NCBI GenBank assembly: GCA_026393895.1
Contig: JAPKZG010000092.1
Coordinates: 1-64,000 of the forward strand
Length of the DNA: 64,000 nucleotides
Direction: 5' to 3'
Origin: Candidatus Aminicenantota bacterium
GTDB lineage: Bacteria; Acidobacteriota; Aminicenantia; Aminicenantales; UBA4085
Shown here: piece by piece, positions 42,996 through 47,465 of the stretch
How the letters are laid out: the number at the start of each line of letters is the position of its first letter
Numbering within the stretch: the stretch's first letter is position 1
Notes under the pieces: generated by a model
The model's database searches: none
Seen by the model: only the letters and a program-made list of their open reading frames with translations
What the model was told of the DNA's origin: nothing
Translations under genes and position numbers: made by a program

Positions 42996-43014
42996 GGGAG
43001 CGAACGGACATTAT

Positions 43015-43073
43015 ACGTACGGAGACAGCCAGGAACAACCGCGGCGCGGTTGTTACTGGCTGTCTCCGTACGT
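43015..43073. repeat. Near-perfect 28-bp inverted repeat (REP/MITE-like palindrome)
   Basis: Arms 43015-43042 and 43046-43073 (ACGTACGGAGACAGCCAG[G/T]AACAACCGC), one mismatch, 3-nt loop GGC. Confidence 0.85.
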
Positions 43074-43187
43074 CCTCTATTGTGCCTTGACAATCAGGAC
43101 GAGGGGCGAAGGTGCATGACAATGATAAATTCGGGGCCGCATCACTATGTTCCAAGTAAAAGTAGTTAACTGCCGTGAGGCTCGCCG

Positions 43188-43248
43188 CTATAACGTAGCG
43201 TTTCAGCGGTACCCGCTCGCGGGCGTTCCCTGCAAGCGCTTGTTAGTC
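43188..43248 (-). other. attC-like recombination site of cassette A
   Basis: Minus strand GACTAACAAGCGCTTGCAGGGAACGCCCGCGAGCGGGTACCGCTGAAACGCTACGTTATAG; imperfect palindrome bounded by GACTAAC and GTTATAG. Confidence 0.8.
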
Positions 43249-44423
43249 AGCATGCCATCGATGTACGATCCTTCGCGTGTTATACCGTTTGAAAGTATCT
43301 CATCCAAGTCCTCAGGCCAAAGCATCGCTGGTCGTCCATCGGATCCACGGAAATTAGAACCAAGAGCGAAACCGTACCCAAGAACATTGTAGAGCTTGAT
43401 GGCTTGTGCGAGCGTAGTCGGTTCGGAGATGTGGAGGATTGAGTAGTAGAGCGCCATCTTGACTGAGTTTTGGCCTGCTTCGGCAGGGCTCATGTCTAGC
43501 CAAGGCGACGGCCGATTGCGGTAGACTTCTTCTCCAAGGCGTCCGAGACACCATAGGAAGATCTCGAATGCAGCATCGGCCAGGGCTTCGTGAGACCACC
43601 GCAGCACGATCTTCCACGCATCGGGCCCATTCTCAATAGCGATCGCTGAGGCGGCTGGTCTTGGCGGATTTACAATTAAGACGCGGCGATTTCCTCCTGC
43701 TCGAAAGCGGAAATGTCGCGATAACCGCCAAGACGATGGGATAACGGAGATCTTCAGCGGCTTATCCACCATCCGAACTGAATAACGCACATGCTTTCCA
43801 TCGGAAGACTGTGTCACTATAGTACGAGATACTCGAGATATGTGGTTACCGAGTTGCTTAGTTACTTTCTTCTGTGAGCAAAGGTACGATTTCACCTCTG
43901 CTATGCCAACAAGAATTGCGCGCTCCCGTGTGGAGGAGGTCACCAGCAAATGTACGTCAGCGGCTTTCGCCAGAGTTGTACCGCTCGACTTCGGTGCCAT
44001 GATAGAGTCGCCGACCCAGATCTGTGTAGCTCCAGGTATCCTCCGAGCCGTCTTGAGCTCCCCTGCAAGTTGCACAATCGGTCCCATTGCGAGCAACTCA
44101 GCGAGTGAACCCTGAATCGCAGTAACTACACGCGATACGGCGAACCGAATTGCCCAATAGTAATCCTCGGCACGTGCTGTTCCGGAATATTCTGAATCCG
44201 GGGCATCACAGTCCTTAAGCAAGTTTTTCATTCTCTCCGCATGTTTTCCGATTGCTTCAGACAAAGTACTGCGGAAAATCTCTAGCGGAGTCATTCGACA
44301 TGGAAATACAGCATCAGCCTCAACCGCCTTACCGAGAGCTTGAAGAAGGTCTTTTCGCAAGTGCGGTTCCAGCATACGCATCGTTAATGCGCTTGAGAAA
44401 TCTATTCTCTTTGGCGATCTCAT
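43203..44423 (-). CDS. Cassette A: hypothetical protein, possible PD-(D/E)XK nuclease-like core
   Basis: 406 aa; KAADVHLLVTSSTRERAILVGIAEVKSYLCSQKKVTKQLGNHISR: D...ExK...Q arrangement; SD AAGGAGAG; stop codon lies inside attC. Confidence 0.7.
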   Translation of the reverse strand: MRSPKRIDFSSALTMRMLEPHLRKDLLQALGKAVEADAVFPCRMTPLEIFRSTLSEAIGKHAERMKNLLKDCDAPDSEYSGTARAEDYYWAIRFAVSRVVTAIQGSLAELLAMGPIVQLAGELKTARRIPGATQIWVGDSIMAPKSSGTTLAKAADVHLLVTSSTRERAILVGIAEVKSYLCSQKKVTKQLGNHISRVSRTIVTQSSDGKHVRYSVRMVDKPLKISVIPSSWRLSRHFRFRAGGNRRVLIVNPPRPAASAIAIENGPDAWKIVLRWSHEALADAAFEIFLWCLGRLGEEVYRNRPSPWLDMSPAEAGQNSVKMALYYSILHISEPTTLAQAIKLYNVLGYGFALGSNFRGSDGRPAMLWPEDLDEILSNGITREGSYIDGMLTNKRLQGTPASGYR

Positions 44424-44451
44424 CTAGTCAAACCTGTCTCTCCTTAGATCC

Positions 44452-44526
44452 GACTAACGCCATACACAATCAGCTGACAATAAAGCGCGGCGCAATTGCC
44501 AGTCCGAGTCAATGCGGTTGTTATAC
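44452..44526 (-). other. attC-like recombination site of cassette B
   Basis: Bounded on the minus strand by GTATAAC and GTTAGTC, ~75 nt, with internal partial complementarity. Confidence 0.8.
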
Positions 44527-44532
44527 GAGCTC

Positions 44533-45399
44533 CTATGCTTTTCCCGAAGCAATATCATAAACAAGCGACGCATAACCTACTAAGTATCTCGTTAGCTCGT
44601 CAAACGGGTCAAGCTGGATATCCAATGGAATCTCCGGATGTATTCTTATCTCCAATATTGAAATAACATTTTCATATTCACCCGTACCAAAAAACCTGTA
44701 GATAAAAGCCTCATAGTCCTCGTGATATTTTCCATTATTCCAGAAACCGCACTTTTTTAAAACGCTTTCCAGAAAGGCATCTCGACTGGTTACCAAGCCG
44801 CCTCTATGAACAATGTAATGGCGCAAATGAGCAATCAACTCAATTGCCAGCTTCAAATTTACATCCAATCTGTTTTTTATCTCAAGATCCACGAGCTGCG
44901 GATAGAGCTCACGTAGGCGAGTGAGAATTGATTGCGGAGTGTCTCGTTTGTTCTTGGCTCGATCCAGATACCAAGCGTAGTCCTTACCAACGAGGTCTGC
45001 AATAGAAATATTTCCGAAATCGCTCATTATCCATGACGAAATGTCTTTGTATCCAAGATGCGCGTAGGTAGCTTCTAAATAATCCTCGAATTCTTCATAT
45101 GCTTCAGCTAATAGCCAGCAATATTGCTTGTTCTTCTGAAAAACAACTAGCTTCTCTCGGTCTTCAAGTGAAGACTCACGGAATCCATATTTTTCCCAAG
45201 AACCGGTTTTGGGATCTATATAGTACATCGCATCCAACGATGAACTTGATTCTTTTGGTGCAGGATTTTCTTTCAGCTTTTCAGCGTATTGATTGAGCTG
45301 GAGGAGTTCTTTCTTTGCAGTGGCTTTGGCAGCTCGCTTGTATAGAACAATATCCGCAACTCGCTCACTGAAGATCAAAAAGATTTCTTTAAGTGTCAT
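44533..45399 (-). CDS. Cassette B: hypothetical protein with HEPN-like Rx4H motif
   Basis: 288 aa; NLKLAIELIAHLRHYIVHRGGLVTSRDAFLESVLKKCG contains RHYIVH within a predicted helix. Confidence 0.7.
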   Translation of the reverse strand: MTLKEIFLIFSERVADIVLYKRAAKATAKKELLQLNQYAEKLKENPAPKESSSSLDAMYYIDPKTGSWEKYGFRESSLEDREKLVVFQKNKQYCWLLAEAYEEFEDYLEATYAHLGYKDISSWIMSDFGNISIADLVGKDYAWYLDRAKNKRDTPQSILTRLRELYPQLVDLEIKNRLDVNLKLAIELIAHLRHYIVHRGGLVTSRDAFLESVLKKCGFWNNGKYHEDYEAFIYRFFGTGEYENVISILEIRIHPEIPLDIQLDPFDELTRYLVGYASLVYDIASGKA

Positions 45400-45425
45400 T
45401 GTTCATTACCTGCGAAGGGCCATTC

Positions 45426-45483
45426 GTATAACGCCCGGCTTCAGCGGGAGCCCCCGGCGATCTAATGCATGCCGTCGTTATCC
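45426..45483 (-). other. attC-like recombination site of cassette C
   Basis: Bounded on the minus strand by GGATAAC and GTTATAC, 58 nt, partially self-complementary. Confidence 0.75.
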
Positions 45484-45495
45484 CTCATTATATCT

Positions 45496-46395
45496 CTATG
45501 AGAAGATGGCGATTGGCAGTACCTGAAAGACCGGACCCTTCGCCTCGAGTTCCATGGAGGGGATCTTGAAGCCTTGAGTCTTTAATTGTTCAGACAATCC
45601 TGCGAGAGCATTATTCAGTATTTTCTCCGGCATAGCGCTAAGTGCGGTCTTTCTTATCAGATTGATCGAATCTTTATCGTCATTAATCACGCTTATTATT
45701 TTACCGAGCACATTAAAGTGGCCATCTACAAGATCAGACATAGTTGGGTCATTGAGAAACTCTCGTTCCAACGTTATCACCGCTCTATAACCGCAGGTCA
45801 ATATGTCCGTAATAATATCTACGGTGTCGCCCGCCTTCAGGCTTTCCAAGAATTGTTCCATCTGCGTTTTAATTGCTTTGTTTTTGTCTGGAGTCTGGAA
45901 TTTTTGAATCTTATTCTGTTGCTGAGGAGGGCCTTGAGAAAAAAGAATGGCCATATTCATGATCCCAATAAACGTATCCATGGTCTGGATTAATGGGTTC
46001 TTTCTCAATGGCGCCGTAAATTCTACGATCTGTCGTATCTCTGGTTTGTTATTGTCATCTATGAAACTCAACTTATTATCGGCAACAAGAATCTTTCGAA
46101 GCATTTGAAACATTGATGCCGGCGTGTGAACCTTTTCTTCGTTTATTTGAGTTCCCGAAGAACCATCTTTTTGTTTCTCCCTGTTTCCTGAAACATCTAT
46201 TCGCAGAAGGGCAGACAGGGCTTTATTAAGGCCAAAAGTCGCTCCGTACTGCTGCTTGTCACTGGCCGAAGACGATTCCATGGATGTAACCCTGGTGACT
46301 GTAGCAATCCCGCCTTGAAGCATGGCGATCATATCGAATACTATACGTTGGTTGAGATAGACGGGAATGATCAACTCGTTTTCAATGCTAGACAT
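45496..46395 (-). CDS. Cassette C: hypothetical protein, 299 aa (possibly DUF6414-like)
   Basis: ENELIIPVYLNQRIVFDMIAMLQGGIATVTRVTSMESSSASDKQ...; SD GGGAGG; resemblance to DUF6414 is from memory only. Confidence 0.7.
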   Translation of the reverse strand: MSSIENELIIPVYLNQRIVFDMIAMLQGGIATVTRVTSMESSSASDKQQYGATFGLNKALSALLRIDVSGNREKQKDGSSGTQINEEKVHTPASMFQMLRKILVADNKLSFIDDNNKPEIRQIVEFTAPLRKNPLIQTMDTFIGIMNMAILFSQGPPQQQNKIQKFQTPDKNKAIKTQMEQFLESLKAGDTVDIITDILTCGYRAVITLEREFLNDPTMSDLVDGHFNVLGKIISVINDDKDSINLIRKTALSAMPEKILNNALAGLSEQLKTQGFKIPSMELEAKGPVFQVLPIAIFS

Positions 46396-46422
46396 CTGAA
46401 AGACCTCCCTTCTTTATCGCGG

Positions 46423-46493
46423 GGCTAACGTTCGAGCTAAGCGGCCATTTTGAGCGAAAGCGAAAAATGGTCCGCTTGAGCGAATGGTTAGGC
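46423..46493 (-). other. attC recombination site of cassette D (textbook structure)
   Basis: GGCTAACGTTCGAGCTAAGCGGCCATTTTGAGCGAAAGCGAAAAATGGTCCGCTTGAGCGAATGGTTAGGC: arms CTAACG-TTCGAGCTAAGCGG-CCATTTT and CTAACCATTCGCTC-AAGCGGACCATTTTT pair with extrahelical bases. Confidence 0.9.
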
Positions 46494-46582
46494 GCCAGGC
46501 ATACAACTTTCGAGATGCATAAGACATATTTTCACAATAGTATCTTGGCAGACAGCGTTAAGCACACCATGAAGATCTACAA

Positions 46583-47077
46583 TCATATAATCACGATAAG
46601 ACGTGTAACCACCACAACAAGAAGACAAGACCAAACAAACATAAACAAATAGAAAACTGACAACAGGCCTTTACGGCTAGAATAGTACTTAAGAGGAGGC
46701 TTGTGATTTCTCAATATTTCTAGGAGAGCTTTGTTATGAGCAGAAGGATGATTCCTGAAAATCCATACATCTGGAAGAGCCTTTTCCTCGAATTCAGCTA
46801 ATCTATACTCCCAATAACTTACCCAAAAGTACGCGCCCTTCACTACTCGAAGGGAGAAGACTGACAATAACATTCCTGTAACTGCAAGAGCGAGAGTCAT
46901 CATTGTCTCGTGAAGAGATGCACCACGAGCTACTCCAAGAAAAGCTTGCGTTGAAAAAGCTAGCAGCGCACCTTGAACAAGTACACATATATTGGATCGA
47001 GAGACAAAATGGTTCAACTCCAGTTCTCGACATTTTTGCAGAATCTCGAAAGCCTTATTAACGCTGTCATCATCCAT
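46583..47077 (-). CDS. Cassette D: small membrane protein
   Basis: About 164 aa from MDDDS; two hydrophobic segments near ICVLVQGALLAFSTQAFLGV / TLALAVTGMLLSVFSLRVV and a C-terminal one; SD GGAGG directly after the GTTAGGC core. Confidence 0.7.
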   Translation of the reverse strand: MDDDSVNKAFEILQKCRELELNHFVSRSNICVLVQGALLAFSTQAFLGVARGASLHETMMTLALAVTGMLLSVFSLRVVKGAYFWVSYWEYRLAEFEEKALPDVWIFRNHPSAHNKALLEILRNHKPPLKYYSSRKGLLSVFYLFMFVWSCLLVVVVTRLIVII

Positions 47078-47465
47078 AATGCCCTCCTTCCTGGCGCCTA
47101 ACATCGTTTACATAGATCCATATAAAAACCGAATACCTCATTAAGTGCCGTAAAAGACGCCTGTGAAAGGAGTATCAGACAGGTCATAACCAATGAAATA
47201 TCAGCCGGTTGCGTCATAATGCGATTTTTATCAAGATGATTGATCCGAAATCGACGCGGACGGGACACCAAACAACGGCCGAAATAAACGGATTTTTCCG
47301 CTGCGACAAAACCGACTTCTAGCATTGTCCGCAACCAATTCCCTTGAATATAAATTGAGATTAACACCCTAATTTAAACGATGTCAAATAGATTGCGTAG
47401 AGCGCCGTCATCCCGATATAATGAACCGGTTATTTCCGATGTCCGCCGGCCGCAAGGAGAATCAC

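Follow-up and report, generated by a model that had tools for sequence, protein, structure and literature searches.

The window (the whole 64,000-nt stretch of DNA that was analysed) carries four single-gene units in tandem on the minus strand at 43.0–47.4 kb, between mfd and a GATase gene. The GC content of this island is 0.43–0.53 compared to about 0.60 in the flanks, and an attC-like palindrome closes each of the four genes on the minus strand. The four minus-strand ORFs, the GC-poorer island and its neighbours were all present as the initial annotation had described them. The palindrome intervals and the matches between the core of each cassette and its own R″ box were also reproduced at the same values, with 7/7 positions in cassettes D, B and A and 6/7 in cassette C. 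The initial annotation had proposed a comparison of the mfd locus among relatives, and this showed that only about 500 bp separate mfd from the GATase gene in G001, a genome of the same genus, where the island is absent.

The first cassette, D, contains a gene for a 165-aa membrane protein (46583–47080, minus strand; Pfam 8xMP, E 2e-13), followed by the cassette C gene for a 299-aa DUF6414 protein (45496–46395, minus strand; Pfam PF19952, E 1.7e-32), and no DUF6414 gene was found in the 94 other genomes searched in the order. The 288-aa product of cassette B (44533–45399, minus strand) is a relative of phrog_35492 (PHROG E 5e-22), and relatives that are about 29% identical are found on Klebsiella and E. 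coli plasmid records of ~110 kb. The 406-aa product of cassette A (43203–44423, minus strand) belongs to no known family, having no significant match in Pfam, PHROGs, PADLOC or NCBIfam and none among plasmids, and the 3′ end of its gene overlaps its own attC. The cassette genes were also considered as defence genes, but this was rejected since the PADLOC matches were weak only. The earlier view that the cargo is uncharacterised was upheld. A near-perfect inverted repeat (43011–43077), with arms of about 28 nt that are 95% complementary, is found in the gap from the last attC to mfd, immediately 5′ of the mfd −10; no second copy of it was found in the genome.

attC sites of the array

The attC sites were evaluated with a covariance model, R1, trained on 8 plasmid attC sites only, with the loops entered as N and one extra N in the spacer of four sites. 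The model was run over the whole 64-kb window with filters off, and hits were reported up to E 10. Six hits were obtained, and four of them (ranks 1, 2, 3 and 6, all on the minus strand) coincided with the palindromes, so that a covariance-model check of the kind proposed in the initial annotation recovered all four intervals at their exact coordinates and strand, with D as the sole site in the window significant alone. The attC of cassette D (46423–46493, GCCTAAC...GTTAGCC) scored 35.8 bits (E 9e-7; z of the single-stranded DNA fold −5.2). The other three, at 11–14 bits, were the attC of cassette C (45426–45483, GGATAAC...GTTATAC; E 0.48; z −1.6), the degenerate attC of cassette B (44452–44526, GTATAAC...GTTAGTC; E 0.39; z +1.5) and that of cassette A, the last of the array (43188–43248, GACTAAC...GTTATAG; E 2.3; z −1.9). 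For comparison, known plasmid attC sites, most of which were training sites, scored 25–57 bits, and the sites of a Kovacikia integron plasmid scored 17–23 bits. The folding check proposed in the initial annotation agreed with R1: as single-stranded DNA, D alone folded like a known attC, A and C folded weakly, and B gave no fold. A cruder test, in which a hand-made palindrome score was compared to shuffled sequences, separated D alone, and Rfam searches at gathering and relaxed thresholds found no attC-like family. What supports attC sites A, B and C, each weak singly, is that coordinates, strand, gene boundaries and core matches all coincide. The R1 and folding results thus show a real array in which one attC site is good and three are weakened, and the four genes are integron cassettes.

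A putative attI and probable remains of intI precede the first cassette

In cassette sense, the sequence preceding the first cassette ends in ...TATATGGATCTATGTAAACGATGTTAGGC, and sequence of this type also precedes the first cassette of an array elsewhere in the genome, on contig C45, where it comes right after a C-terminal integron integrase fragment. By homology, the region 47096–47243 (minus strand) comprises an intI–attI spacer and attI, with the core GTTAGGC at 47096–47102. The region is 79% identical over 149 nt to the platform on C50 of the same genome and 78% identical over 74 nt to the DNA just behind the intact intI of G043, so that a putative attI can be placed beside the first cassette from both sister copies and intact relatives.

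Further upstream, a promoter-like sequence, TTGACATC...TTAATCT, forms the platform's left end at 47350–47387 (minus strand), where the homology among platform copies begins, and is 84–87% identical over 38 nt to the copies on C50 and C93. Its −35 (TTGACA) is perfect and its −10 (GTTAAT) lacks the key A. The left-end promoter was absent from the list given by a promoter scan of the window, and expression from it is doubtful because of the poor −10. Overlapping the left end is a probable intI 5′ stump (IYIQGNWLRTMLEVGFVAAEKSVYFGR; 47275–47355, minus strand), identified by blastx and blastn. The blastx match was 44% over 27 aa to residues 3–29, in the frame of the intact G019 IntI (E 6e-4). With blastn, 47276–47387 matched the intI promoter and first codons of G019 at 63% over 113 nt, and the same region matched a copy on contig C240 of G007 at 68% over 114 nt (E 7e-9). 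The first codons of intI thus probably survive in the window and the remainder of the gene was probably deleted, and an 89-aa ORF at 47098–47367 may represent a frame across the deletion scar.

No functional intI is present in the window, only the short 5′ stump. A cluster of attC sites that lacks an integrase is called a CALIN, as the term is used where PMC8618304 and PMC12444791 refer to Cury et al. 2016. The window has at least two attC sites, as judged by R1, and no proximal intI, as in that definition. The initial annotation had described a horizontally acquired cassette array without a functional intI, and this was borne out; its CALIN label proved correct regarding the missing integrase and incomplete regarding the attI, the left end and the probable intI stump. 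Since these three elements remain, the array is, as far as homology tells, an integron with an attI that lost its intI by internal deletion, and is more than a CALIN.

Related platforms in the same genome

The host genome is a Candidatus Aminicenantes metagenome-assembled genome (MAG), 93% complete, in 106 contigs, and close relatives of its mfd also come from MAGs of this group. Platform copies were counted by sequence searches, not by a full scan. The initial annotation had suggested a search of the rest of the genome for intI and attC, and related platforms with cassettes were found on at least four other contigs (C45, C50, C83 and C93), those on C50, C83 and C93 in DNA searches with the region upstream of the window's first cassette. 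What remains of intI differs from contig to contig, down to nothing at all, and no intact intI was found. No gene in the genome exceeded the TIGR02249 cut-off; the best integron-integrase match was the fragment on C45, with 80 bits compared to a cut-off of 265. An intact intI could lie in a part of the genome that this MAG does not cover. Two full-length recombinases (on C101 and C37) that were found in a search with an IntI1 HMM were XerC/D-like genes and not IntI. On C41, a short tyrosine recombinase adjoins a large serine recombinase (L013:2366-4657).

The platform on C45 has kept attI and cassettes together with a C-terminal IntI fragment, which contains two frameshifts over the RHSF box. 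IntI residues 118–146 remain on C83, and C50 is without intI, with the promoter-like end joined to the spacer. On C93, only the left end is found, and it runs directly into a truncated cassette that has an attC. The R″ box of the first cassette matched the core of the respective attI at 7/7 positions in the window and on C83 and at 6/7 on C45 and C50, suggesting that attI would have recombined with the attC sites. The best attC by R1 had an E-value of 9e-6 on C45, 4e-4 on C83 and 5e-3 on C93, and the attC on C50 was weak (E 5). The C83 platform (L105:8145-11176) sits between leuD and leuB. This gap is 15–252 bp in more distant family members and contains an unrelated rhomboid-like gene in G001, so that no exact empty-site junction could be read. 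The leuD–leuB spot takes different insertions, an integron copy on C83 and the rhomboid-like gene in G001.

The products of cassettes at other places in the genome include Abi_C, HNH, ASCH and amidohydrolase proteins. The cassettes on C45 encode a protein with an Abi_C (abortive infection) domain (L010:7724-8929) and an HNH endonuclease (L010:6963-7724). The amidohydrolase cassette on C93 (L106:7729-8661) has counterparts in G007 and G019 that are 88–89% identical in nucleotide sequence. Since the protein encoded by the chromosomal mfd is only 68% identical to that of G007, this points to cassette transfer within the order.

Intact integrases and platform copies in relatives

Among the 95 genomes of the order, four passed the integron-integrase cut-off, and a stop-free gene was found only in G019 and G043. 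Both of these have an intact integron integrase (TIGR02249 E 1e-143 in G043 and 1e-147 in G019), with intI upstream of attI and with intI, attI and cassettes all on one strand. The same arrangement of intI, on the cassette strand and upstream of attI, was found for the C45 fragment; the window shows only the stump. Additional platform copies, mostly deleted, were found in G007, G019 and G043, and intact and deleted copies occur together in G019 (94% identity over 146 nt) and G043 (97% over 301 nt). The distribution is patchy, since neither platform nor attC was found in the three genomes of the same genus, and relatives have empty or different intergenic sequence at the platform loci. Genomes of families f5 and f1 (L046–L055) contain another set of integron integrases. 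Almost all of these are truncated or internally deleted, and several are followed by a common motif like AAATATACGACTTGCAATATAACATGGATAAT. A repeat of ~107 nt lies inside the intI–attI spacer on contig C152 of G007 (L108, about 1128–1235). It has many copies with 90–98% identity in several Aminicenantes genomes and is possibly a MITE. A search with a G007 copy of the platform as query mostly matched an unrelated high-copy repeat.

To examine the left boundary, 11 copies from three genomes were aligned on the TTGAC motif. Upstream of TTGAC, pairwise identity over 40 bases was at the level of chance (0.26), and it rose to 0.61 across the first 37 downstream bases. The latter value is an underestimate owing to a two-base register error in the alignment of one copy. 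The flanking genes differ between the 11 copies. The abrupt start at TTGAC beside unrelated flanks can therefore be read as a true junction, implying movement of the platform from locus to locus and its dispersal. Other arrays contain or precede some of the copies: one copy begins three bases past an attC (C101 of G019) and another lies about 200 bases past an attC (C177 of G007). Insertion of the platform by IntI at G^TT does not hold as a general rule, since the base preceding TTGAC was not consistently G. No terminal inverted repeats were found at the platform copies, and neither a constant right end nor an inverted left-end motif was found in five right flanks, except for one match in the window at the level of chance. 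Target duplications were not found in a comparison made without close empty sites. Since the promoter and attI formed part of the queries that found most copies, the retention of these parts is partly ascertainment.

Discussion

We consider it very probable that the island is a decayed reverse-orientation chromosomal integron. With its sister copies it makes up a set of five or more related platforms in this genome, in each of which intI was deleted in a different way. The ancestral unit would have consisted of the left end with TTGAC and promoter, followed by intI, spacer, attI and cassettes. An IntI that has since been lost here, or that acts in trans, would have put circular cassettes into attI, with each inserted cassette keeping its own core and attC. 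Most of intI, which we infer was once intact at this locus, would later have been deleted, leaving the promoter-like end, probable first codons, spacer and attI. Such a deletion would have frozen the array, which would now be fixed or mobile only via IntI in trans. Because intI and the cassettes share a strand, the deletion would also have moved the intI promoter beside the cassettes, which may be expressed by read-through from it, and it could hypothetically raise their expression. Points against a decayed integron are the three weak attC sites, the shortness of the stump (27 aa, 44% identity), the poor −10 and the fact that the genome is a MAG.

The absence of a functional intI from the window would also be expected if an IntI encoded elsewhere had inserted cassettes off-target at mfd, which would then never have had a platform of its own, and such an origin is possible for CALINs (PMC8618304). 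However, the first cassette is preceded by an attI-like site and spacer homologous to those of intact integrons, with a probable intI 5′ stump upstream, and the attI homology largely refutes off-target insertion, which we regard as very improbable. It is less probable still, to the point of being hardly credible, that the locus is no integron and merely consists of four genes in conserved synteny, passed on vertically, whose palindromes resemble terminators. The weakness of three of the four attC sites when taken singly would fit such genes, but the covariance-model hits together with the core matching, the missing island in G001 of the same genus and the restriction of the DUF6414 gene to this genome among those searched refute this reading.

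The sharp left end with unrelated flanks in 11 copies and the coexistence of intact and deleted copies in G019 and G043 could suggest that the platform is a MITE-like non-autonomous element whose mobility is supplied in trans, either from an intact copy or by some unknown enzyme. The deleted copies keep both ends, the TTGAC promoter end and attI, and such mobility would add to the decayed-integron explanation. In contrast, no inverted terminal repeat, target duplication or constant right end was found, and the ascertainment described above applies to the retained promoter and attI. We therefore hold a MITE-like element to be possible and rather unlikely. Equally tentatively, the integron platform itself, with left end, intI and attI, might be a dispersing element in the order. 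Its internally deleted, intI-less copies, which keep a fixed 5′ end and attI, would provide extra cassette landing sites for one IntI in trans. The relation between these copies and a helper IntI might then, by a speculative analogy, resemble that between MITEs and a helper transposon.

Chromosomal integrons are usually viewed as sedentary and confined to a single locus, and the origin of CALINs is debated. The genome studied here appears to show a CALIN arising via internal deletion of intI with attI in place, and the sister loci would represent different stages of one decay process. If the platform disperses, one integrase could serve many landing sites per genome, and it would become possible to test how scattered arrays in environmental bacteria originated. 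The initial annotation had called integrons little described in this lineage, which is right only in part; they have been reported for Acidobacteriota (PMC8618304), and in the literature searched we found no paper describing an integron in Aminicenantes.

Like a CALIN, the locus has an attC array without a functional intI nearby. Unlike a CALIN, it retains attI and a probable intI stump, and an origin by intI deletion is directly readable for that reason. In class 1 integrons, the fitness cost of the integrase favours its loss (PMC3510236). The IntI of G043 is about 54% identical to IntI1 of class 1 with full coverage of TIGR02249, but the orientation of intI relative to the cassettes is opposite to that of class 1. 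Repeated loss of intI is shared with the ilvD integrons of Xanthomonas, in which such loss is common and frameshifts and large deletions have inactivated or removed intI, leaving frozen arrays (PMC12444791). The Xanthomonas platform is found at one locus in nearly all genomes, whereas the platform described here is found at several loci of a single genome. In orientation, the closest likeness is to the reverse-orientation chromosomal integrons of Treponema denticola and T. succinifaciens, in which intI is read toward attI on the cassette strand (PMC3607928), as intI, attI and cassettes share one strand in both groups. In T. phagedenis, an attC array persists after the loss of intI (PMC3607928); in contrast to an array of that type, the attI and left end are still recognisable here. 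In kind, a decayed reverse integron is thus already known. What differs from Treponema is that at least five dispersed platforms with separate internal intI deletions occur in a single genome here, and several dispersed, differently deleted platforms within one and the same genome are new within the literature searched.
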